IMG/VR virus record: IMGVR_UViG_3300037041_001242
Span: 1-38,773 of that record
Length of the DNA: 38,773 nucleotides
Origin: a virus
Direction: 5' to 3' (one strand)
Below are positions 1,105 to 37,842 of the stretch, piece by piece. Both the position numbers and the translations under genes were made by a program. The notes under the pieces were generated by a model. The model was not told the origin of the DNA. It worked only from the letters and a program-made list of their open reading frames with translations, and searched no databases. The stretch's first letter is position 1. Each line of letters starts with the position of its first letter.

Positions 1105-1169
1105 ACAGGGCGTGAAAGCCGGGGCGGGCGTTGGGCCGCCCCGGCGAGTAGCGGGTGAGTGAGGCATCC

Positions 1170-3137
1170 GTGAGTATTCTTTGGGTTGATTTCGAGACGC
1201 GCAGCCGCTGCGATTTGCGCAGTCACGGCGTCTACAACTACGCGCAGGACGCCAGCACAGACGTGCTGTGTATGTCCTACGCCTTCGACCGTGGTTCCGT
1301 GCGGACGTGGCGGCATGGCCAGCCTTTCCCGCAGGACGTGGCCAAGCACACCGGCCAGATACGCGCGCACAACGCTGCGTTCGAGCGCCTGATTTTCTGG
1401 TATGTGCTCCAATGCGAGTTCAAGCTGGAACAGTTCTACTGCACCGCAACGCAGGCCCGCGCCAACTGCGCGCCCGGCGGTCTGGAAGACGTGGGCCGCT
1501 TCGCTGGCGCAGGGATGCGCAAGGACCACCGCGGCGCTCAACTCATTCGCCTGCTGTCGATCCCGCAGGCCGATGGCTCGTTCCGTGAGGACGAAGGCCT
1601 GATGGCCGAGATGGTCCAGTATTGCGAGCAGGATGTGCGTGCGATGCGCGCGATCAGTCAGGCGCAGCGGGAGTTGTCAGCGGATGAACTGCACGACTAT
1701 CATGTTAATGAGCGTATCAACGACCGCGGTGTCTTGCTTGATAAACCTCTGGCTCTGGCGGCGGTGCGTTACGCTGAACAAGAGGCTGTCGAGATACAAG
1801 ACCTCGTTTGTGAGATTACTGAAGGCGAAATCACGTCCGTCCGCAGCCCGAAGATGCGTTCGTGGGTCTTGGACCGCGTCGGACCGCAAGCCATAAAGCT
1901 GGCCACGGTTCACAAGGACGGCGAAGCCAAGCTATCCATCGACAAGAACGTGCGCGCCAACCTGCTGGCGCTGGCGGAGGAAAACCCTGATGAAGTCCCG
2001 GCGCAAGTGGCAGACGTTATCCAGTGCGCAGACGATCTGTGGGCGTCGTCGGTCGCAAAGTTTGCGCGTGCGGCGGCGCTGGCTGATGAGGAAGATAGCC
2101 GAGTTAGAGGCGCGTTCGTATTTGCAGGAGGCAGTGCTACTGGCCGTGCTTCGTCATACGGACTTCAAGTCCACAACTTTCCCCGAAAGTGCGCCGCCGA
2201 CCCTGCATTAGTGCGCGACGCTATGGTGCGCGGCCACAAGGTCGTGCCCAAGCACGGCCGCCGCGTGACGGACGTTCTGAAGGGTATGCTGCGCCCCGCG
2301 CTGATGGCCGCGCCCGGCAAGGCGCTGGTGGTGGCCGACTGGGCCGCCATCGAAGCGCGGGTGACGCCGTGGGCGTCGGGCAGCAAGAGCGGCCGCGCCA
2401 AGCTGGACATCTTCGCCAAGGGCGAGGACGTGTACAAGCACAACGCGGCGGCGACCTTCCGCGTCGGTTACGACGAGGTTGACAAGGATCAGCGCCAGAT
2501 CGGCAAGGTTCAAGAGTTGGCGTGCGGCTTCGCCGGCGGTGTGGGCGCGTTCGCGTCGATGGGCCGCATCTACAACATCATCCTGTCCGAGAACGAAAGC
2601 CGCAAGATGGTGGACGCATGGCGCAGGGCGAATAGCTGGTCGGTGCCCTACTGGTCGAAGCTGGAAAGCGCCTACATGGCGGCCATGCGCAATCCGGGCC
2701 GCAAGTTCGACGCGGGCCGGGTCGCATATTTATTCGACAAACAGCATCTGTGGTATGCCCTGCCGAGCGGTCGTGTGCTATGCTATCCTTTCGCCCGCTT
2801 CGATGACGCAGGCGATCTGACCTATGCGAAGGCGTCGTGGAAGCCGTCAGCCGACGCAAAGGAATGGCCGCGCGCCCGTCTCTGGCGCGGTCTGGCCTGC
2901 GAGAACATAACGCAAGCGGTGGCCAACGATCTGTTGCGTCATGCGCTGCGGCGGTTGGATGGGGAGGGGCTGGACGTGGTGCTTCATGTGCATGACGAAG
3001 TGGTGCTGGAAGTGCCGGAAGCGGACGCGGATGACGCGGCCGCCCGGCTAGTCGAGGTTATGTGTCAACCGCCAGAATGGGCCAAGGGACTGCCGCTGAA
3101 CGCGGAAGTCGCCACGATGTTCCAATATGGCAAGTAA
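1170..3137 (+). CDS. DNA polymerase, family A, with 3'-5' exonuclease domain
   Basis: Replicative polymerase of about 655 aa. The N-terminal DnaQ-like exonuclease shows Exo I (WVDFET, near residue 5), Exo II (RAHNAAFE) and Exo III (YCEQDVRAM). The polymerase part shows motif A as ADWAAIEARV near residue 387, a motif B-like stretch (QRQIGKVQELACGFAGG) and motif C as HVHDEVVLEVP near residue 606. Motif A with Trp-Ala-Ala in place of Tyr-Ser-Gln is common among phage enzymes of this type. The GTG at 1170 is preferred over the GTG at 1155 because GTGAGG lies 5-6 nt upstream of it. The primase-helicase follows closely; the end of this gene overlaps that gene's ribosome-binding site. Confidence 0.95.
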   Translation: MSILWVDFETRSRCDLRSHGVYNYAQDASTDVLCMSYAFDRGSVRTWRHGQPFPQDVAKHTGQIRAHNAAFERLIFWYVLQCEFKLEQFYCTATQARANCAPGGLEDVGRFAGAGMRKDHRGAQLIRLLSIPQADGSFREDEGLMAEMVQYCEQDVRAMRAISQAQRELSADELHDYHVNERINDRGVLLDKPLALAAVRYAEQEAVEIQDLVCEITEGEITSVRSPKMRSWVLDRVGPQAIKLATVHKDGEAKLSIDKNVRANLLALAEENPDEVPAQVADVIQCADDLWASSVAKFARAAALADEEDSRVRGAFVFAGGSATGRASSYGLQVHNFPRKCAADPALVRDAMVRGHKVVPKHGRRVTDVLKGMLRPALMAAPGKALVVADWAAIEARVTPWASGSKSGRAKLDIFAKGEDVYKHNAAATFRVGYDEVDKDQRQIGKVQELACGFAGGVGAFASMGRIYNIILSENESRKMVDAWRRANSWSVPYWSKLESAYMAAMRNPGRKFDAGRVAYLFDKQHLWYALPSGRVLCYPFARFDDAGDLTYAKASWKPSADAKEWPRARLWRGLACENITQAVANDLLRHALRRLDGEGLDVVLHVHDEVVLEVPEADADDAAARLVEVMCQPPEWAKGLPLNAEVATMFQYGK

Positions 3138-3147
3138 GGAGCAAGCG

Positions 3148-5490
3148 ATGAGTGAGGATCGCACGACGTTTATTGATTACATCACGCAGCTTGGCGACGT
3201 GGACGGCGAGACTGTCCTGTTGCTCAAGCAGAAGCCGAAGAAGGACGCGGCTGGCGACATCATCTATCACGGTGACGGCGTGCCGAAGGCAACCTTCCCT
3301 GCGTTCATGCCCGACAAGGCGCGCATCCGTGAAGGTGAAGCGTGGTATGTGAACACCGGATCGTTCATCATCGACCGCTTCGAGGACGGCAAGCCAAGCG
3401 CGCGCGGCGAGAATTGCGAATACGTCCTGTTCATGATGCTGGACGACATCGGCACCAAGTCCAAAGAGCCGGCCCTGCCGCCGACATGGATCATGGAGAC
3501 GAGCGAAGGGTCGTTCCAGTGGGGCTACGCCTTCAGCCAGCAGCCGACCAAGCATGAGTTTACGGCGGCCATCAAGGCCATAGCCGACGCAGGCTACACC
3601 GATCCGGGCGCGACCAACGCCGTGCGCAACTGCCGCATCCCCGGCAGCGTCAACCTGAAGCAAGGCCGCGGGCTGTTCGCCGCACGGCTGACCGCGTTCC
3701 ACCCTGACCGCGAATACACCCTGTCGCAGATTTGCGAAGCGTTGGGCGTCGAGCCTGCCGAGCCGGACACTGCCGAGTTCCGCCGGATCGCCATTCGCGA
3801 CACGGGCGGCGACACTGTGCTGCAATGGCTGTCCGACAACAATCTGGTGCTGTCCAAGGTCAACAACGAAGGCTGGTGCGGCGTGGTCTGCCCCAACCAT
3901 GAGGAACACACCGACGGCGCTATCGAAGCGCGCTACAAGCCGTTGGATCGTTCGTTCTGCTGCTACCACGGCCATTGTCAGGACATCGACAGCCGCGCCT
4001 TCCTGAATTGGGTCGCTGAGAACAACGGCCCCAAGGTAATGCCCGGCTTGCGCGATGAGTTGATTGCCGAGCGCATGAAGCAGATGGCCGAAAAGATCGC
4101 GCCGACCGACGCCTATCCGGATGAGGCGGCGGCTATCGTGCGGGACGTGGAGCGCAAGGAAGCCGGTCGGCTGGAAAAGGCCGAGTGGTTCGAACGCTTC
4201 GCCTACATCCAGTCGGACGATGCCTACTTCGACATGGTGACGCGCACCGAAGTGCCGCGGGGCGTGTTCAACGCGCTTTACCGTCACGTCGATTGCCGTT
4301 CGGTGCATAACCGCAAGCGGCAAATCCAAGCGTCGATCTACTTCGACGAGCGCCGCCAAGAGTATGGCGCGAAGGCGCTGACGGGTGTGACGTTCGCGCC
4401 GGGCGAGAACGTGATGGTCGCCCGTGACGGGCTGGTCTACGGCAATCGGTGGGTCAACCATCGCCCCGACATGAGCGGTTCCGATCTGATGACGGATGCT
4501 GACGTGGAGCGGTGGCTGGATCACTGCCGCGTGCTGGTGCCGAATGAGGTCGAGTTGGCGCACGTGCTCAACGTCATGGCATACAAGGTGCAGCACCCCA
4601 ACGTGAAGATCAATCACGCGGTGCTGCACGGCGGCGACGAAGGCAGCGGCAAGGACACCATGTGGGCACCGTTCCTGTGGGCGATTGGCGGCGAGCATCA
4701 GCACAACCGGTCGATCATCGAGACGGGCGGTCTGGACAGCCAGTGGGGCTATGGTCTGGAAGCCGAAGTTGTCATCCTGAACGAGTTGAAGGAACCGGAG
4801 GCGCGGGAGCGCCGCGCGCTGGCCAACAAGCTGAAGCCGGTCATCGCCGCGCCGCCTGAGACGATCCTGATTAACCGCAAGGGGCTGCATCCGTATGAGA
4901 TGCTCAACCGCTTGCAGGTGATCGCCTTCACGAACGATCCTCTGCCTATCACGATCCCTACGCAGGATCGCCGTTGGTTCTGTCTGTGGTCGCACGCGCC
5001 GCGCATGGAGCCAGAGGCAGGCCCGGCCCTGTGGGCATGGTATAAGACCGGCGGCTTCGAAAAGGTCGCTGCATGGCTCTGGCAGCGCGATGTGACGGCG
5101 TTCAACCCCGCCGCCGCGCCGCCGGTCACTGAGTGGAAGCTGAACATGGTCGAGCACGGCCTGTCGGTTGCCGAGTCCTTCCTTGTCGATCTGATGGTGC
5201 AGCGGGTCGGGCCGTTCGCGCAGGGTGTGGTCGCAGGGCCGTTCCATAAGCTGTGCGATACGATCACGGCAGGCTACGTTCCGGCTGGCACGAAGGTTCC
5301 GCAGGCGGCACTGCTGCACGCCTTCAAGGAAGCCGGATGGAAGGATTGCGGACGGGTGGCCAGTGCCACGCTCCAGACGAAGCGGCATATCTTTGCCAAT
5401 CCGGACGTGGCGCAGAAATACAGCAAGAGCGAATTGCGCCGCATGGTCGAAGAGGTTGCAACCGCAGGCGGGGGTGTGGTAAAGCCATAG
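3148..5490 (+). CDS. Primase-helicase (AEP-like primase, zinc motif, SF3/DUF5906-like helicase)
   Basis: A 780-aa protein likely to prime and unwind DNA at the fork. The N-terminal third resembles archaeo-eukaryotic primases: an acidic pair in FMMLDDIG (about residue 97) and the signature RNCRIPGSVNLKQG (about 162). A Cys/His cluster follows near residues 246-273 (CPNHEEH, then FCCYHGHC), probably binding zinc. The C-terminal half has a Walker A (GGDEGSGKDT, about 495), a Walker B-like VVILNELKE, and a sensor-like IAFTNDPLPITIPTQDRRW, as in D5/DUF5906 helicases. AAGGAG sits 6 nt before ATG 3148, so this start beats the upstream one at 3127. It is the last gene of the operon. Confidence 0.9.
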   Translation: MSEDRTTFIDYITQLGDVDGETVLLLKQKPKKDAAGDIIYHGDGVPKATFPAFMPDKARIREGEAWYVNTGSFIIDRFEDGKPSARGENCEYVLFMMLDDIGTKSKEPALPPTWIMETSEGSFQWGYAFSQQPTKHEFTAAIKAIADAGYTDPGATNAVRNCRIPGSVNLKQGRGLFAARLTAFHPDREYTLSQICEALGVEPAEPDTAEFRRIAIRDTGGDTVLQWLSDNNLVLSKVNNEGWCGVVCPNHEEHTDGAIEARYKPLDRSFCCYHGHCQDIDSRAFLNWVAENNGPKVMPGLRDELIAERMKQMAEKIAPTDAYPDEAAAIVRDVERKEAGRLEKAEWFERFAYIQSDDAYFDMVTRTEVPRGVFNALYRHVDCRSVHNRKRQIQASIYFDERRQEYGAKALTGVTFAPGENVMVARDGLVYGNRWVNHRPDMSGSDLMTDADVERWLDHCRVLVPNEVELAHVLNVMAYKVQHPNVKINHAVLHGGDEGSGKDTMWAPFLWAIGGEHQHNRSIIETGGLDSQWGYGLEAEVVILNELKEPEARERRALANKLKPVIAAPPETILINRKGLHPYEMLNRLQVIAFTNDPLPITIPTQDRRWFCLWSHAPRMEPEAGPALWAWYKTGGFEKVAAWLWQRDVTAFNPAAAPPVTEWKLNMVEHGLSVAESFLVDLMVQRVGPFAQGVVAGPFHKLCDTITAGYVPAGTKVPQAALLHAFKEAGWKDCGRVASATLQTKRHIFANPDVAQKYSKSELRRMVEEVATAGGGVVKP

Positions 5491-5516: not shown

Positions 5517-5566
5517 AAAGCCCCCGGTCTTGCGGCCTCACTCCGCTAGACCGGGGGCTTTTCTTT
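5517..5566. terminator. Bidirectional rho-independent terminator
   Basis: A 14-bp perfect stem, AAAGCCCCCGGTCT (5517-5530) with AGACCGGGGGCTTT (5548-5561), has a 17-nt loop and is followed by TTCTTTT. On the minus strand the stem ends in an A/T-rich flank as well. It lies between convergent operons, so it probably stops transcription from both sides. Confidence 0.9.
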
Positions 5567-5757
5567 TAGTGTATGCGCGTGACGGTCGTTACGCCGTCCG
5601 TTGTGCGGCACTGGTAGTAGCGTTGGTGCCTTAGCCCGTATTGGCTGACGTTGCGGCAGATGCGCTTGCTGTCGGCGGGTGTGGGTGCTGGTAGGGTGAT
5701 GCTATCGCCTAGGGCCATGTCGCGCAGCGGATAGGTCGGCGGTCGTCCTAACGCCAT
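5566..5757 (-). CDS. Conserved small phage protein, YPLRDMALGDS type
   Basis: A 63-aa basic protein, last gene of the minus-strand block. It has the layout of a widespread small phage family: a Tyr-Pro-x-x-Asp-Met-x-x-Gly-Asp-Ser motif near the start (YPLRDMALGDS), then an Arg-rich helix, then a YGLRHQRYYQCR stretch and a short beta-strand end. No function is known to me. It overlaps the previous gene by 10 nt, with AGGTGA upstream of ATG. Its stop lies against the bidirectional terminator. Confidence 0.8.
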   Translation of the reverse strand: MALGRPPTYPLRDMALGDSITLPAPTPADSKRICRNVSQYGLRHQRYYQCRTTDGVTTVTRIH

Positions 5758-6228: not shown

Positions 6229-6455
6229 TTCAGGTGTTCTCCCTTCTCAAGCATCATGGCCGTCTGCCGCATCCCGTGCTTGCGCAGCCACTCTGCGATC
6301 AGCGCCTCTCGCGCCTTCACGGCGTTGTCGATTTCGATCCGGCGGGAAGCGGCCTGCGCGTCTAGGACACTGTCGAACGTCAGCACCTCGTCAAAGGCAC
6401 CGCGCAGCCAGTAGAATTGATCTTTCTCCGACCAGTTGACTTTCGGTGCTGTCAT
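6225..6455 (-). CDS. Hypothetical protein, 76 aa
   Basis: A 76-aa protein. It opens with an aromatic stretch (VNWSEKDQFYWLRGAFDEVL) and then looks helical with mixed charge. The ATG at 6455 overlaps the preceding stop as ATGA, with GGGAGAG upstream. No family recognised. Confidence 0.75.
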   Translation of the reverse strand: MTAPKVNWSEKDQFYWLRGAFDEVLTFDSVLDAQAASRRIEIDNAVKAREALIAEWLRKHGMRQTAMMLEKGEHLK

Positions 6456-6832
6456 TCCATCTCTCCCAGTGCGGCGCGGGCTTCGGCTTCGGTGGCATGA
6501 ACCGTGTAAGAATATGGCTCATCGTCATCGCGCTCGTTCATTTCGGCTTCGGTGAAATAGTGCAGAGCAACCCACATATCTGGCACCGGCCTTGCACCGC
6601 TGATCTGCAATACATGATCCCCCTTCGCAGGGTTATCCCATTCAAAATCTTCGGAGATGCATTCGTCGATACCAAAGCGGCACTGGTCGCTACTGCAATC
6701 GTCGCCAAGGTAAAACCAGTGCGCCTCCTTCAACGCCGCCCGCAGCCGCTCGTTCTCGGCAGTCAGGGCTTCGATGCGGTCGGCTTGCTCCTTGCAGGTG
6801 GCGCAAAAATTAGTGCGAATGTTGTCGGTCAT
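6452..6832 (-). CDS. Hypothetical protein with EALTAENERLR coiled coil, 126 aa
   Basis: A 126-aa protein in three parts: a short Cys pair (CATC, residues 10-13), a leucine-zipper-like segment RIEALTAENERLRAAL (about 19-34), and an acidic aromatic C-terminal part ending with the phage-type helix TEAEARAALGE. The zipper is encoded by DNA almost identical to that in the next upstream gene, so modules have been swapped or copied. The ATG at 6832 overlaps the previous stop as ATGA, with AAGGGAG upstream. Function unknown. Confidence 0.78.
   Translation of the reverse strand: MTDNIRTNFCATCKEQADRIEALTAENERLRAALKEAHWFYLGDDCSSDQCRFGIDECISEDFEWDNPAKGDHVLQISGARPVPDMWVALHYFTEAEMNERDDDEPYSYTVHATEAEARAALGEME
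6741..6778. repeat. 38-bp zipper-coding repeat, copy A
   Basis: Matches 7010-7047 at 37 of 38 positions. It encodes the IEALTAENERLR segment on the minus strand. A third, diverged copy lies around 7527-7562. Confidence 0.8.
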
Positions 6833-7122
6833 TTCCCGTCTCCCTTCATTGCGCGGATGGTGGTGGCGATGCGGGAGCTATCCGTTTCGGTTAGATGCTC
6901 TGTCAGGCCACGTACCGACTTGGCCCATTCTAGTGCGCGTTCATGGAAACAATCCGCCACCTTCGCCGCTTCCTCCAACACCTCATCCCTCACCGCTGCG
7001 AGGTGGGTGCGCAGCCGCTCGTTCTCGGCAGTCAGTGCTTCGATGCGTCCGCACAGTTCTATAACTTGTGTGTGCCTTGCGGCCTTCTTGCTGAGAACCC
7101 GCTTCACCAGATCGTCGGTCAT
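6829..7122 (-). CDS. Hypothetical protein with EALTAENERLR coiled coil, 97 aa
   Basis: A 97-aa protein beginning MTDDLVKRVLSKKAARH. The segment RIEALTAENERLRTHL (about residues 26-41) is the same zipper module as in its downstream neighbour; a long helical charged region follows. The ATG at 7122 is chosen over the longer frame because it gives ATGA coupling and has GAGGAG upstream. Such zipper mosaics are common in phage accessory regions. Function unknown. Confidence 0.78.
   Translation of the reverse strand: MTDDLVKRVLSKKAARHTQVIELCGRIEALTAENERLRTHLAAVRDEVLEEAAKVADCFHERALEWAKSVRGLTEHLTETDSSRIATTIRAMKGDGK
7010..7047. repeat. 38-bp zipper-coding repeat, copy B
   Basis: Partner of 6741-6778 with one difference (T against G). 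It encodes the same coiled-coil segment in the neighbouring gene, pointing to recent duplication or recombination between adjacent genes. Confidence 0.8.
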
Positions 7123-7397
7123 TTCCCAAACTCCTCTTCCCAAAGTTCGATGGCGCGGCGGCAAGCGTCCACCGCCTCGTCCCACTCATCGTATCCATGT
7201 TCACTAGCCGCCTTACGCGCGCACAGCAGCTTGCGATCCACGGGCGGCTGCTCGTGGCGTTCGATCATGTCGCAGAGGGCGCGAAAGGTGCCATGGTTTT
7301 CATAGTAACTGCGCAGATTGCCAACGGTGTCGTCCCATTCGCTCCGCTTCCCAGCTTCGATAAGCACCCAGTCGGGCGGTGTTTGCTTGTCGGTCAT
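7119..7397 (-). CDS. Hypothetical protein, 92 aa
   Basis: A 92-aa protein, acidic and Trp-rich (PPDWVLIEAGKRSEW near the start, RAIELWEEEFGK at the end), likely all helical. Its N-terminal PPDWVLIEAGKR resembles the opening of many small phage proteins of unknown role. It overlaps its upstream neighbour as ATGA, with GAGAGAC before ATG 7397. Confidence 0.77.
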   Translation of the reverse strand: MTDKQTPPDWVLIEAGKRSEWDDTVGNLRSYYENHGTFRALCDMIERHEQPPVDRKLLCARKAASEHGYDEWDEAVDACRRAIELWEEEFGK

Positions 7398-10009: not shown

Positions 10010-10233
10010 CAGGCGGTCGCCTTTGCCATTTGGTTGCGCCAGAAATCGCGCTCGCCGCGCATGAAGTCGCGCATGGTTCCGCTAAAGCCGCGCATGGTGC
10101 GTTCGATCGCGGCAATATGATCGGCAATAAATGCGCGATCGATTGTGTCGCCTGATGCGATGCAATGGCGCTTGAAGTCGCGCCCCTCAAGGATGCCGTC
10201 AAGGTAGGCTTGCGAGACTGTTTGCGTGGTCAT
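10009..10233 (-). CDS. Hypothetical protein, 74 aa
   Basis: A 74-aa protein, MTTQTVSQAYLDGILEGRDF at the start, then a basic helical body with many Met, Arg and Phe residues (MRGFSGTMRDFMRGERDFW). AGGGAG precedes ATG 10233 at good distance. Not recognised. Second gene of the operon. Confidence 0.78.
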   Translation of the reverse strand: MTTQTVSQAYLDGILEGRDFKRHCIASGDTIDRAFIADHIAAIERTMRGFSGTMRDFMRGERDFWRNQMAKATA

Positions 10234-10249
10234 GGTCGTTTGCTCCCTG

Positions 10250-10402
10250 TTAGATTGCGTAGGAATGAGTGGCAGGCTTGTCGCTGGCGGTGATCGCCAC
10301 GATCACGCCGCGCTTGGCGAAGATGTCATTAGCGGCAGCGCGCGCTTCGGTTTCGGTGGCGAAGCGCCAAGGCTTGCGGTTGGCGTGGACTTCGTATGTC
10401 AT
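10250..10402 (-). CDS. 50-aa hypothetical protein, first gene of the small-gene operon
   Basis: A 50-aa protein, MTYEVHANRKPWRFATETEA followed by helix and strand (ARAAANDIFAKRGVIVAITA). This resembles the many tiny phage proteins with a strand, then T-x-x-E-A-x-A-A helix, then strand. ATG 10402 is chosen over the frame start at 10438 because AGGAG lies 9 nt upstream of it. It would be the first gene read from the promoter region to its right. Confidence 0.72.
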   Translation of the reverse strand: MTYEVHANRKPWRFATETEARAAANDIFAKRGVIVAITASDKPATHSYAI

Positions 10403-10452
10403 GTCATTTTGCTCCTGTTGGGCGTTTCTATGGGTCATTTGCTAAACCCTCA

Positions 10453-10482
10453 AATACACCTCGTCAAGCGGTTTTGTATCAA
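10453..10482 (-). promoter_or_regulatory. Possible sigma70-type promoter of the small-gene operon
   Basis: Read leftward, TTGATA (10482-10477) and TGTATT (10458-10453) are separated by 18 nt, and the first ATG of the operon lies about 50 nt downstream. The match to consensus is fair, not strong. A second TTGACG (10467-10462) lies between them and might serve a different -10. Confidence 0.35.
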
Positions 10483-10512
10483 AAAGTGTGTTGGGCAGCG
10501 AGAAAAGCCAAA

Positions 10513-10520
10513 ACGCCCAT
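10513..10520 (+). repeat. CGCCCAT repeat 1
   Basis: Core ACGCCCAT, preceded by AAGCCAAA, which resembles the left part of copies 4 and 6. First of seven copies in the gene-free region. Confidence 0.6.
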
Positions 10521-10562
10521 GTTGAAACGGATTGTGTTGCCTTACTGACATTGGTGTAAGTA

Positions 10563-10571
10563 ATGGGCGGT
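10563..10571 (-). repeat. CGCCCAT repeat 2 (inverted)
   Basis: ATGGGCGGT on the plus strand, reading ACCGCCCAT on the minus strand. Only the core is shared with the other copies. Confidence 0.5.
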
Positions 10572-10653
10572 CATTTGGGCCGTCAAATAGGTCACGATTT
10601 CCGGCGGGATGACCCAGCGAAAAAGCGCGGCAATCCAAGGGGCTGAGTAGCTT

Positions 10654-10673
10654 ATGGGCGTTATAGGTTATGG
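10654..10673 (-). repeat. CGCCCAT repeat 3 (inverted, long form)
   Basis: On the minus strand this reads CCATAACCTATAACGCCCAT, identical at 18 of 20 positions to copy 4. TATAAC within it could also act as a -10 element. Confidence 0.7.
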
Positions 10674-10747
10674 AGATGGTAATAAGTTAAAAAAAGTTTA
10701 GTTGTTAAGAATGGTTATCAGGTACGGAATTGGCGGCGACTTTACAC

Positions 10748-10767
10748 CCATAACCCAGAACGCCCAT
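10748..10767 (+). repeat. CGCCCAT repeat 4 (long form)
   Basis: Reads CCATAACCCAGAACGCCCAT. With copy 3 it defines the 20-nt form of the repeat. Confidence 0.7.
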
Positions 10768-10833
10768 TTGACCGATGCCAAAATGTCACACTTCTAGATT
10801 TTGTCGCCCCCGCGCACCCTCCCCCCGCAAAAC

Positions 10834-10842
10834 ATGGGCGGT
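10834..10842 (-). repeat. CGCCCAT repeat 5 (inverted)
   Basis: ATGGGCGGT on the plus strand; the next bases on the motif side (TTTAGG) give CCTAAACCGCCCAT on the minus strand, a partial match to copy 3. Confidence 0.5.
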
Positions 10843-10882
10843 TTAGGTGGCCAAAACGTAAATCGGTTTGCGACTTGTAATG

Positions 10883-10902
10883 CGACAACCCATAACGCCC
10901 AT
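10883..10902 (+). repeat. CGCCCAT repeat 6 (long form)
   Basis: Reads CGACAACCCATAACGCCCAT. Its CATAAC lies 17 nt after TTGCGA (10868-10873), so this copy may cover the -10 of a rightward promoter. Confidence 0.65.
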
Positions 10903-10992
10903 CCGCTCTAGCTATGTTCCTTATTGTAATAATGTTGCGTGACCGCTGGCCGATAGGTCGATGTGTCCGCGCGTCACGCGCCAGCTAAATGT

Positions 10993-11012
10993 GTCCAACC
11001 CAGATCGCCCAT
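10993..11012 (+). repeat. CGCCCAT repeat 7 (long form)
   Basis: Reads GTCCAACCCAGATCGCCCAT; the last 16 bases differ from copy 4 at one position. It is followed at once by a degenerate AGCGCCCAG. Confidence 0.65.
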
Positions 11013-11091
11013 AGCGCCCAGCTAAAAGGTCAATGCTGGCTGCTGCTAGCCGTCTGGTTTCTGCTGCGTTGCAGCTTGCTAGGTACCCCCC

Positions 11092-11169
11092 GGGGGCCGA
11101 CGGAGGTGTGACTGTCACGGGCACCACCCGTGAACAAAAAATATTTTTTAATTTTTGTTGTCGGCCCCC
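11092..11169. other. Nested inverted repeats with three-way-junction potential
   Basis: Outer arms GGGGGCCGAC (11092-11101) and GTCGGCCCCC (11160-11169) are perfect complements. Between them lie two further stems: TCACGGG (11115-11121) with CCCGTGA (11127-11133), and AACAAAAA (11133-11140) with TTTTTGTT (11152-11159). The stems abut, giving a compact junction in RNA or a cruciform in DNA. The last stem is very AT-rich. The HNH gene starts 24 nt after the element. Confidence 0.6.
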
Positions 11170-11192
11170 ACCCATTGTGGTATTGGTCGCGC

Positions 11193-11645
11193 ATGGAACT
11201 TCTCACGCAAACCGAGCTTAAAAAATTATTTTTTATTGATCCTGAAACGGGAGAGTGCGTTCGGCGTAACGGGCGCCCTACAGGCAGCTTGTCGCAAAAA
11301 GGGTACCTGCGCACGACCGTGAACGGCCGCGAGTATAGGCTTCACCGGCTAGTGTGGTTGTGGGTGCACGGTGAACACCCGGCGGAAGGCATGACGATAG
11401 ACCACATCAACGGCGTCAAAACCGACAACCGCATAAGCAACCTTCGGCTAGCGACCATATGCCAAAACACTGCGTATGCGCTCGACGATTGCGCCCGGCG
11501 TAACATCGTAAGAGACACGAAAGGTTTTCGCGTCGAGATGATAGTTCACGGGGTGCGCCACCGTCGCCGCGCGGCTACTTTCGAAAAGGCGCTGGCTATC
11601 CGAGAAGAAATGTACGCGCAGTTTCCTGCGTTAGCGTTGCGTTGA
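11193..11645 (+). CDS. HNH homing endonuclease
   Basis: A 150-aa free-standing HNH endonuclease. The N-terminus holds a short NUMOD4-like region, and the core has the HNH signature IDHINGVKTDNRISNLRLAT (about residues 70-89). The C-terminus (DTKGFRVEMIVHGVRHRRRA) looks like a short AP2-type DNA-binding part. Such genes cut intron- or gene-less alleles and spread themselves. It lies just upstream of the terminase genes and is AT-richer at its start than its neighbours. ATG 11193 is preferred; a GTG at 11130 would add a stretch encoded by the nested repeat. No good ribosome-binding site is visible. Confidence 0.85.
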   Translation: MELLTQTELKKLFFIDPETGECVRRNGRPTGSLSQKGYLRTTVNGREYRLHRLVWLWVHGEHPAEGMTIDHINGVKTDNRISNLRLATICQNTAYALDDCARRNIVRDTKGFRVEMIVHGVRHRRRAATFEKALAIREEMYAQFPALALR

Positions 11646-11656
11646 GCCGCGAAACA

Positions 11657-11672
11657 TATTATCGTGCGCCCA
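11657..11672 (+). promoter_or_regulatory. Possible -10 element giving leaderless terminase mRNA
   Basis: TATTAT at 11657-11662 is close to a -10 consensus. The small-terminase ATG lies at 11672, about where transcription would begin, and no ribosome-binding site is seen before it. No convincing -35 is visible at the normal distance. Confidence 0.3.
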
Positions 11673-12172
11673 TGACCTTCTACTCACTGCCATTCACGCC
11701 CGAGCGCGTCGAAGCCACTGAGGCGCGTCTCGAAGCGATCTATGAGGCTGCCAAGTACGGACTCAAGGGCGACAGCCTTGCTATGCGCGCTGGCCTCACC
11801 CCGGTGCAGTATCGCCGGCTGCAAGAGTTTGACCCGCTGGTTGAGATGGCGGAACTTAAGGGCCGCGCCGACGGCGAGTGGATGGCGGCCAAGACGCTGC
11901 ATGAGGCGGCGGCTGAGGGCGACGCCAAAGCCGCGCTGGACATTCTCAAGCATCAGCATGGGTGGGTGGCCAAGCAGCAGGTCGATATTAATGTCGATCA
12001 GCAGATCAGCGTCATCGGCGCGCTGGAGCGGGCGCAGACCCGCGTCATAGAGGGGCTGTACACGGAACTGCCCCAGTTAGAGGACGACCGTACCAATGCA
12101 GCAGCCGATATACTCAGCCCAAGACGAGATGGAGTTAATGTCGAGGCTGTGGTCCCCGACGATCAAGGATGA
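11672..12172 (+). CDS. terS: Terminase small subunit
   Basis: A 166-aa protein (P22 gp3 is 162 aa) that would recognise phage DNA for packaging. The N-terminal half is helical with an HTH-like stretch (AAKYGLKGDSLAMRAGLTPV, then YRRLQEFDPLV). The middle (WMAAKTLHEAAAEGDAKAAL, DILKHQHGWV) is typical of small terminases, followed by a beta-like VDINVDQQISVIGALE. Its C-terminus overlaps the large subunit by about 77 nt in another frame. The call rests on fold-like pattern and position. The start is uncertain: ATG 11672 has no Shine-Dalgarno, and a TTG at 11642 is the alternative. Confidence 0.82.
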   Translation: MTFYSLPFTPERVEATEARLEAIYEAAKYGLKGDSLAMRAGLTPVQYRRLQEFDPLVEMAELKGRADGEWMAAKTLHEAAAEGDAKAALDILKHQHGWVAKQQVDINVDQQISVIGALERAQTRVIEGLYTELPQLEDDRTNAAADILSPRRDGVNVEAVVPDDQG

Positions 12173-35553: not shown

Positions 35554-35741
35554 GCGCTCATCCTCTTCATAATCTCCCTGCGTTCGCGCATCGACCGCAG
35601 CTTGCACAGCCGCTGGTGCAGCCGCTTGGCAATCGCCGCCCGCTTGTGCGTGTGGATTTCGTCGTTGAGCATCCGCTCCAACGTCGGTTCGTCATACTCA
35701 GATAGCTTGACGGCAATCGTCTGCCATGAAATCTTAGCCAC
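35550..35741 (-). CDS. Basic helical protein, 63 aa
   Basis: A 63-aa protein, MAKISWQTIAVKLSEYDEPT then a long basic helix (HTHKRAAIAKRLHQRLCKLR). It starts at GTG 35741 inside the end of the helicase gene (8-nt overlap), with GAGGAA upstream, and couples to DUF3310. It probably travels with the helicase; function unknown. Confidence 0.78.
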   Translation of the reverse strand: MAKISWQTIAVKLSEYDEPTLERMLNDEIHTHKRAAIAKRLHQRLCKLRSMRERREIMKRMSA

Positions 35742-37041
35742 TTTTTAATTCCTCTAATGCTACGTCTGACACGGCGCGCTTGTCATGCAGCGCCGCCCAA
35801 ATCCGTTCGTCGATGGTGTTGTCCGTCAGCATGACGTAGACCCAAACGGCGCGCCTCTGCCCACTGCGGTGCAGGCGCCCGACGGTTTGTTCGTATAATT
35901 CTAGCGACCACGGCAGCGACAGGAACACCATGTGGCAGCCGCCGTGCTGTAGGTTCAGGCCGTGCCCGGCCGACTTGGGGTGGACCAGCAGCAGTTCGAC
36001 CTCGCCGCGGTTCCAGCGTTCGATGACGTTGTCGTCATCCATCGTCTGCGCGTGCGGGAAGCGGCGCTTGAGTTCCGCCAGTTCCTCAAGGTAGCTGTAC
36101 GCGACGATGGTGTTCGCGCGCTGGTTCTCGGCCAGCAGTTCTTCCAGCCGGTCAAATTTGTGCGGGCTGAACCAGATCGACTCCTGCGCTCCGCCGCGGT
36201 TGTACGCGAAGCCGCTGGCCATCTGTTGCAGCTTGCTCGTCACGGCCCCGGCGTTCTGCGCGATGATGCGTTCCTCGCCGAAGCGCGTCACGTATTCCTT
36301 CTTCATGATATCGTATGGTGCGCGGTCGGCCAGCGCCACCCGCGCCTCGTTGACATGGCACGGCGGCAGCTTGTCCTTGTACTCGCCCGGCTCCAGCACA
36401 TAGGTCGCCGGGCGGATGCGCTCCATCACCTGCTCTAGCCCGCCGTGGGCAGGCACCCACTGGCCGAAGTCGCGGTTGATGCAGATGAAGTACTGCTGCA
36501 TGAAGGCGCCCTTGGCGCGGCCCAGCAGCGTCTGGTCCACGATCTTGCATTGGCCGAAGACATCCTCAAGGCCGTTCGACGTGAACGAACCGGTCAGCCC
36601 CCAGCGCACGCGCACCGGTGCGATTAGCTTCTCCAACGCCTTGAAGCGTTTGCCGCCGGGGTTCTTCAGGCGCGTGAGTTCGTCAAAGACGATCCCGTCA
36701 AAAGCGGACAGGTCGGACAGGGTCTGAAGGTTATCGTAGTTCGTGACGATAACCTGAGCGTTGCTGTCCCAAGCCGCGGCACGCTCGGCGGGGGTTCCGA
36801 CTGCAACGCGCAGAGTAATTCCCTCCGCCCACTTGGGCTGCTCGACAGGCCACACGTCGGTGCACACACGCTTCGGTGCAAGCACGAGCCAGCGTTTGAC
36901 ATGGCCGTCATCAAGCATCGCCTTCATAGCTGTCAGGGTAATGGCCGTCTTGCCCGCACCCACAGGCGCAAGGATCATCGCGCGGTCCCGTTCGTACAGG
37001 AAGTCGGCGGCATCACTTTGGTACGGGCGCAACTCAAGCAT
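35734..37041 (-). CDS. SNF2-type superfamily 2 helicase
   Basis: A 435-aa helicase/translocase. Motifs in order are Q-like LRPYQ, I APVGAGKT, II GIVFDELTRLKN, III LTGSFTSNG, V HPKSAGHGLNLQ and VI QTVGRLHRSGQRRAVWV. SNF2-like phage helicases of this size accompany VRR-NUC nucleases and are thought to help recombination or replication restart. ATG 37041 is preferred; TTG 37050 is an alternative. The start overlaps the end of the HNH gene. Confidence 0.92.
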   Translation of the reverse strand: MLELRPYQSDAADFLYERDRAMILAPVGAGKTAITLTAMKAMLDDGHVKRWLVLAPKRVCTDVWPVEQPKWAEGITLRVAVGTPAERAAAWDSNAQVIVTNYDNLQTLSDLSAFDGIVFDELTRLKNPGGKRFKALEKLIAPVRVRWGLTGSFTSNGLEDVFGQCKIVDQTLLGRAKGAFMQQYFICINRDFGQWVPAHGGLEQVMERIRPATYVLEPGEYKDKLPPCHVNEARVALADRAPYDIMKKEYVTRFGEERIIAQNAGAVTSKLQQMASGFAYNRGGAQESIWFSPHKFDRLEELLAENQRANTIVAYSYLEELAELKRRFPHAQTMDDDNVIERWNRGEVELLLVHPKSAGHGLNLQHGGCHMVFLSLPWSLELYEQTVGRLHRSGQRRAVWVYVMLTDNTIDERIWAALHDKRAVSDVALEELKSG

Positions 37042-37558
37042 GACGGGCAAAATCTCCGAACAGACGCTGTTTGGCGACGCGCGCGACTTCGACTGCCTGC
37101 TCTAAGGACTTGTACAACCCAAAACTGCGTGTACGCCCGTCTAACGTGACGCGTACCCACCATTTTTTAGACGGCGTGTGCCACGTCACCCCACGTACGC
37201 CGCTGCTATTTGCCGCCGTGTGCGCCCGGTTCCGCGAATTTTGCGCTGGCGTTGCTAAACGTAAATTTTCAATTTTATCGTTTCCGGGATTGCCGTCTAT
37301 GTGGTCAACAATACCGAACTTGCTGACGCCATAGTAGACGGCCCATATAACCCGAGCGGCCTTATATGTACGGCCGTCCAGCGTAATCTCTACGCGCCCG
37401 TTCGACCTACGCGCGCCAGCAATTTTACCCGCGCACTGGTTGTTAAAGTTATGCCAGCCCGCACCGTTTTTGAAATGCGCTCGGGGGCGCTGACGCCATA
37501 CCAAATGGCCGGCGCCCGCGTCGTAATCAAAACACTCGCGTAAATAGTCCACGTTCAT
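37034..37558 (-). CDS. HNH homing endonuclease with AP2-like domain
   Basis: A 174-aa free-standing endonuclease. It has an N-terminal module (DYLRECFDYDAGAGHLVWRQ), the HNH core VDHIDGNPGNDKIENLRLAT (about residues 84-103) and a C-terminal AP2-type part (GVRGVTWHTPSKKWWVRVTL). It sits between VRR-NUC and helicase yet keeps coupling on both sides: its ATG overlaps the upstream stop as ATGA, with AAGGAG before it, and its end overlaps the helicase start. It is AT-richer than its neighbours in places. Confidence 0.88.
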   Translation of the reverse strand: MNVDYLRECFDYDAGAGHLVWRQRPRAHFKNGAGWHNFNNQCAGKIAGARRSNGRVEITLDGRTYKAARVIWAVYYGVSKFGIVDHIDGNPGNDKIENLRLATPAQNSRNRAHTAANSSGVRGVTWHTPSKKWWVRVTLDGRTRSFGLYKSLEQAVEVARVAKQRLFGDFARHA

Positions 37559-37842
37559 ACGCCAGTCTCCTTGAAGCGGCTGCACCACTGATCCACACCT
37601 TCCTTCGACCACAGCACGGCGTAGTGCTGATCAGTTGCCGCCATCTGCTCGGCGAATATCTCCTGCAACGCAGACAGCCGGCCGCCGGGCCTCTTCAACT
37701 CCACGAACCACGTCTCGCCGTTCGGCATACAGGCGATGCGGTCAGCGACGCCGCGCTGGCTCACGCTGCGGAACTTGTACGCAAAACCGCCCAGCGCCTT
37801 CACGCTCTTGACGAAGTGCAATTCGATCTCTTTTTCGCTCAT
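37555..37842 (-). CDS. VRR-NUC domain nuclease
   Basis: A 95-aa stand-alone nuclease of the PD-(D/E)XK group. GVADRIACMPNGETWFVELK holds the catalytic D and E-x-K, followed by RPGGRLSALQEIFAEQM. VRR-NUC proteins of this size in phages act as structure-specific, Holliday-junction-like nucleases. First gene of the leftward replication operon, beginning about 100 nt from the start of the divergent Fe-S nuclease gene. Confidence 0.9.
   Translation of the reverse strand: MSEKEIELHFVKSVKALGGFAYKFRSVSQRGVADRIACMPNGETWFVELKRPGGRLSALQEIFAEQMAATDQHYAVLWSKEGVDQWCSRFKETGV

Follow-up and report, generated by a model that had tools for sequence, protein, structure and literature searches.

The 38,773-base virus record analysed here (the window, by which we mean that whole stretch) holds a leftward set of small genes that ends near 10.4 kb and a rightward terminase operon that begins with TerS at 11672, and between the two stands an array of short repeats. 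What purpose do these repeats serve, and which protein binds them? A sequence-only reading of this DNA had offered operators, phage-specific promoter elements or the iterons of an origin, with one of the unknown small proteins or a host factor as the binder. We propose, at close to nine chances in ten, that the array is the phage's replication origin, and that its iterons are recognised by a predicted winged helix at the C-terminus of the primase-helicase that the phage itself encodes. The sequence of the repeat changes in step with three residues of that protein, and the pairing of origin and initiator is therefore readable from genomes alone.

The repeat array and its counterparts in related phages

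The seven CGCCCAT copies listed in the sequence-only reading were all confirmed, in the orientation + - - + - + + (10514+, 10563-, 10654-, 10761+, 10834-, 10896+ and 11006+). The bare heptamer is mildly enriched, with 17 occurrences in the whole window vs 9.0 expected (3 of 100 shuffles reach 17), and the 16-mer AACCYATAACGCCCAT, searched with a tolerance of three mismatches, has seven matches in the window, six of them in the array (0.36 expected, 0 of 100 shuffles). A similar density in coding DNA, which had been named as evidence against the motif, was not found, good 16-mer copies being confined to the array region. From the comparison across relatives, the repeat unit is an iteron of only 9 bp, A-T/A-N-R-C-CCA-K, with successive copies following one another in 9-bp steps. 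The long copies of about 20 nt described earlier are present at their sites, but the unit is smaller: they are tandem pairs of 9-mers, since neighbouring copies often follow head to tail with a spacing of exactly 9 bp. The strict consensus NHNRCCCAK has 13 copies in the array, in both orientations (Table 1), a density 15 times that of the rest of the window, and any other 620-bp stretch holds at most five; the left start of the array lies further out than described earlier, at the minus-strand copy ATGACCCAT.

Table 1. Positions of the genes, domains and repeats in the window.
Feature	Position	Strand	Basis or remark
Family A DNA polymerase	1155-3137		
787-aa primase-helicase, proposed initiator	3127..5490	+	RepB-primase-like N-terminus, DUF5906 / SF3-type helicase
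C-terminal winged-helix domain, residues 674-787, proposed iteron-binding	5146..5487	+	predicted fold, pLDDT 82.5, pTM 0.73
Codons of wing residues 745-751 (A-S-A-T-L-Q-T in the window)	5359..5379	+	specificity positions 745, 747, 751
Weaker copy AACGCCCAA	10418-10426	-	adjoins iteron ATGACCCAT
Iteron array, proposed replication origin	10430..11012	both	13 strict 9-mers NHNRCCCAK, density 15-fold
Iteron ATGACCCAT	10430..10438	-	9-mer scan
Iteron AACGCCCAT	10512..10520	+	9-mer scan
Iteron ACCGCCCAT	10563..10571	-	9-mer scan
Iteron ATGACCCAG	10609..10617	+	9-mer scan; consensus form of relatives
Tandem iterons ATAACCTAT + AACGCCCAT	10654..10671	-	left flank of AT-rich core
AT-rich core, proposed DNA unwinding element	10672..10742		30-bp minimum G+C 17%, between diverging iterons
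Iterons TACACCCAT (overlapping), ATAACCCAG, AACGCCCAT	10743..10767	+	right flank of AT-rich core
Tandem pair ATAACCCAG + AACGCCCAT	10750-10767	+	
Iteron ACCGCCCAT, second site	10834..10842	-	9-mer scan
Tandem iterons ACAACCCAT + AACGCCCAT	10885..10902	+	
Tandem iterons CCAACCCAG + ATCGCCCAT	10995..11012	+	
AGCGCCCAG	11013-11021		directly after the CCAACCCAG + ATCGCCCAT pair
SNF2-type helicase	35734-37050		
PD-(D/E)XK nuclease	37736 onward		

For the comparison, TerL relatives and primase relatives were taken as phage contigs, and about 126 primase loci or extended contigs cover the primase C-terminus together with the pre-terminase gap. The two data sets, of 52 and 88 loci with some overlap or near-copies, were dereplicated to 38 and 74 phages. 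In well-covered relatives, the gap before the small terminase gene is filled by a repeat whose sequence differs between phages: the 5' part (A-T/A-N-R-C) is common to most iteron types and the core triplet varies (CCA, CTA, GTC, AAC and others), as in the consensus iterons ATGAC-CCA-G, ATAGC-CTA-G, ATGAC-GTC-C and ATGAC-AAC-T. The array is kept in relatives, though its letters are altered; the earlier proposal to abandon the motif if its copies were not conserved would have misled, as it is the array that is conserved and not its letters. MW202483, the sole close GenBank relative, whose annotation describes a complete podovirus genome, encodes an initiator 55% identical to that of the window (annotated 'virulence associated protein E') and has the wing CFAPELS and iterons ACTACCAAC inverted around an AT-rich core, a layout as in the window with a different wing and iteron. 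Relatives were found in only two metagenome-assembled bins, of an actinobacterium and of Rhodoferax, which is too little for naming a host.

The iterons of the window diverge around the AT-rich core. Among the 38 phages, same-strand iteron spacing peaks at 9 bp (82 pairs, against at most 16 for any other spacing up to 40 bp), and the most AT-rich inter-iteron gap is flanked by a minus-strand iteron to the left and a plus-strand iteron to the right in 27 of 37 phages, an arrangement seen in only 10% of the other gaps, the nominal p of 2e-19 being too small because the phages are not fully independent. This test on inter-iteron gaps replaced a first AT-window heuristic, which often chose AT-rich DNA outside the array.

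Covariation of the primase-helicase wing with the iterons

The primase-helicase matches Pfam RepB_primase and DUF5906 and PHROG 'DNA primase', and its modelled domain order is primase, helicase and a predicted winged helix. Since the full-length AlphaFold model was poor (pLDDT 55.8), only the C-terminal model was used. These 114 residues are predicted to form helices followed by a strand (66-72), a loop and a further strand (79-84), which would place residues 745, 747 and 751 (model residues 72, 74 and 78) in the wing loop. Foldseek and VIA-align searches with the C-terminal model gave no significant match (best E 0.02, Z 7.7); its non-significant PDB matches are mostly winged-helix proteins (the Bacillus subtilis replication terminator protein and MarR, PadR and ArgR types), and the absence of P4 alpha and SaPI Rep from these structure matches excludes nothing.

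The alignment suggested that a C-terminal segment of the primase-helicase, GR-x-x-S-x, changes with the repeat. Covariation was computed for the 38 dereplicated phages as the mutual information between each alignment column and the array class (CCCA, CCTA or other; these classes were initially recognised by eye in a portion of the first data set), and gave z of about 15-16 for residue 745, 9-11 for residue 747 and 8-10 for residue 751, with z at most 4.8 in the other 519 of the 522 variable columns. Almost no signal comes from residues 753-787, which are encoded closer to the array. In the same 38 phages, none of the 92 variable columns of TerS, beside the array, tracks the repeat class (maximum z 4.1), and the maxima for TerL and for a conserved 63-aa gene (5566-5757) are 4.7 and 4.3; these three were rejected as binders for want of covariation. 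A 253-aa ORF (6446-7207) was likewise set aside as a candidate, having no homologue in 18 relatives. The 63-aa gene, on the minus strand and convergent with the primase-helicase gene, is present in 38/38 dereplicated relatives despite highly variable neighbours.

A tree built from primase-helicase residues 1-690, with the C-terminus left out, shows the classes scattered, with about 15 changes of array class, about 17 changes of residue 745 and 18 steps for the two together. Independent pairs differing in array agree in the residue by 6-7 to 0 (G with CCTA) and by 6 to 0 (N with other arrays); the sign test on these pairs gives a median p of 0.03 on well-supported branches only, which is modest by itself. 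Two phages, L160 (wing GST, GCCTA iterons) and L164 (wing NSK, GACGTC iterons), are identical at 683/690 positions in residues 1-690 and at 21/22 in residues 766-787, and at only 14/26 in residues 740-765; this is the clearest case of wing and array switching together. On the best reading, initiator-origin specificity has switched repeatedly.

From the first clade we drew the rule that A or H at residue 745 goes with CCCA, G with CCTA, and any other residue with neither. The rule was correct in 66 of the 74 dereplicated phages of the distant clade (2,000 shuffles: mean 32, maximum 45), a result for which the count threshold was fixed at the time of the 74-phage test and to which many closely related A-type phages contribute (9 distinct wings). 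More residues must matter, because the rule is broken in 8/74 phages (e.g., wing ASFEHSS with CCTA) and because two phages, L180 and L181, have a wing common to both and arrays that differ. The distant clade also holds new pairings (KSR-TGTCCAC, DSG-CTGCCGA and EST-CTGCGGA), the first of which recurs in the relative from the Rhodoferax bin. In the contig L359, in which no terminase was recognised, the wing is ASR, yet no CCCA array stood out.

The array as a proposed replication origin and the competing explanations

Covariation and the predicted winged helix support the C-terminal domain as the part that would bind the iterons, and the 9-bp tandem array, the AT-rich core and the wing covariation favour, of the functions proposed earlier, that of origin iterons. 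We infer a sequence of iteron binding, ring loading, melting and bidirectional start: the winged helix would bind the 9-bp iterons, with wing residues 745, 747 and 751 reading the variable mid-iteron triplet (CCA in the window phage); tandem iterons that flank the AT-rich core and face outwards would load two helicase rings in opposite orientation; the core would melt, the helicase would unwind in both directions, and the fused primase would prime the phage's family A DNA polymerase. Several observations count against this explanation: the GC skew of the window shows no clear turn at the array; the C-terminal model lacks a significant structural match and the full-length model is poor; some phages break the wing rule; and the initiator gene lies 5 kb away, while SaPI origins adjoin the initiator gene.

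The place of the array between diverging genes, its two orientations and its first copies, which adjoin the leftward operon at its 5' end, would also suit operators of a transcription regulator for two diverging arms, the leftward small genes and the rightward terminase operon. We nevertheless consider this improbable, since a scan of 10200-11700 for sigma-70-type promoters found no site against 1.2 expected, a result that also disfavours the promoter elements suggested earlier; moreover, only the wing columns of the initiator track the repeat type and the small gene kept in 38/38 phages does not, and tandem repeats in 9-bp steps on either side of an AT-rich core better suit an origin. The operator idea is, besides, left without a binder, as TerS, TerL and the 63-aa gene show no covariation comparable to that of the primase-helicase, which, rather than an unknown small protein or a host factor, is most likely the binder. 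The initiator could also repress nearby genes as a side effect.

Covariation of wing and iteron could arise from linkage only, if a recombining cassette carried the 3' end of the initiator gene together with the array and another protein of the cassette bound the repeats, and the segment that separates the array from the primase gene is indeed highly variable and exchanged. The signal is, however, confined to residues 745, 747 and 751, the tails after the wing are nearly identical in L160 and L164, and hitch-hiking on a cassette is no explanation because the residues past the wing, nearer to the array, carry almost none of it; such linkage is thus very unlikely. Packaging signals of the cos/pac type often precede TerS by a few hundred bases, as in lambdoid phages, and the array has just such a position, but recognition of the repeats by the TerS encoded just downstream is the most improbable of these explanations: TerS is well conserved across phages with completely different repeats, and 0/92 of its variable columns follow them.

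Returning to the origin and its initiator, we lean towards a natural code within one phage family, in which three wing residues would determine the middle triplet of the iterons (A or H with CCA; G with CTA; N with GTC or AAC; K with the TCCAC type; D with CGA; E with GGA). Close relatives would re-pair wing and origin again and again, giving origins that exclude one another, perhaps in response to competitors or origin-targeting nucleases.

Comparison with known initiator-origin systems

The array is best read as an origin of the SaPI/P4 working type, with iterons flanking an AT-rich melting site (for the definition of the SaPI/PICI-type replicon origin, see PMC6092414). In the Pri-Rep-ori of SaPI/PICI, the initiator is a helicase, to which the primase is sometimes fused, and its C-terminal domain recognises short iterons (PMC7581432). 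The likeness lies in an element-encoded initiator with helicase and primase domains (by Pfam/PHROG in our case). However, the SaPI/PICI origin is directly downstream of the initiator gene, whereas in the window the primase gene ends at 5490 and the array starts at 10430, beside the terminase genes, with an opposing small-gene operon in between; SaPI/PICI are satellites that rely on a helper phage, whereas the window has its own terminase, DNA polymerase, packaging and structural genes; and iterons in 9-bp head-to-tail units, with a specificity switched many times among close relatives, are unlike those of SaPI/PICI. The window is therefore not a PICI member, its origin not being beside the initiator gene and the element not being a satellite.

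In the alpha protein of P4, a winged-helix domain at the C-terminus binds the origin. This protein unites primase, helicase and origin-recognition functions in a single polypeptide (PMC7145576), as the window protein with its predicted winged helix would. In contrast to P4, the window primase part is RepB/AEP-like with DUF5906, the iteron sequence is different, and the window record, which may be incomplete, shows only one dense array, P4 having a second cis site, crr, besides ori. The NrS-1 primase-polymerase (PDB 6k9c, 6k9e and 6lrb) provides the only solved structures matched by sequence; the match covers the helicase core (residues 494-620, E 4.6e-7) and does not extend to the C-terminal wing domain.

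Geminivirus Rep proteins are a known case of covariation between initiator and origin. Such covariation has also been described, with repeated swaps between close relatives, for RepA and ori of the Vibrio cholerae satellites PLE and the nuclease Odn (PMC8263062), but the PLE initiator is of the RepA_N type, without helicase or primase (PMC7145576), and has few known types and a binding domain different from that of the window phage. In the open-access papers searched, we found no wing-loop code in a phage primase-helicase with so many natural switches. It has long been asked how a replication initiator can move to a new origin and survive, given that the protein and its DNA site have to change at once. 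The natural wing-origin pairs described here number in the dozens, some of them on almost identical backgrounds, and they make frequent switches and the residues involved visible. With a domain of roughly 115 residues and a short DNA, predictions and swaps are testable, and such a code would assign an origin to phage genomes of unknown hosts.

Several further elements were observed near the array and its counterparts. An HNH endonuclease gene (PHROG 99; 11130-11645, +) lies between the array and TerS, with a 79% identical one in the relative G003 and a 'homing endonuclease' at the matching place in MW202483; placed next to the proposed origin, such a nuclease might attack the origins of rivals, or the gene may be no more than a homing gene. 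Another gene for an HNH endonuclease (37034-37612, -) lies between the SNF2-type helicase and PD-(D/E)XK nuclease genes. At 11100-11165, GTGACTGTCACGGGC is followed by T-rich DNA, and slightly altered forms of this stretch precede TerS in L007, L012 and L021; it is a candidate cos/pac site or terminator. MW202483 (L358) encodes a protein annotated 'dnaa protein helix-turn-helix' and has, at about 28.1-28.6 kb of its record, upstream of TerS and nearer to it than the iterons, a second array, of GTTTACATAAAC-like palindromes, to which a ATGTAAGC array in L359 is similar. In a few distant relatives, the pre-TerL gap holds other dense short repeats, unlike the 9-bp iteron form (GGCAGGCA 16 times in L276, and AGGGCAGG 11-14 times in L304 and L327).
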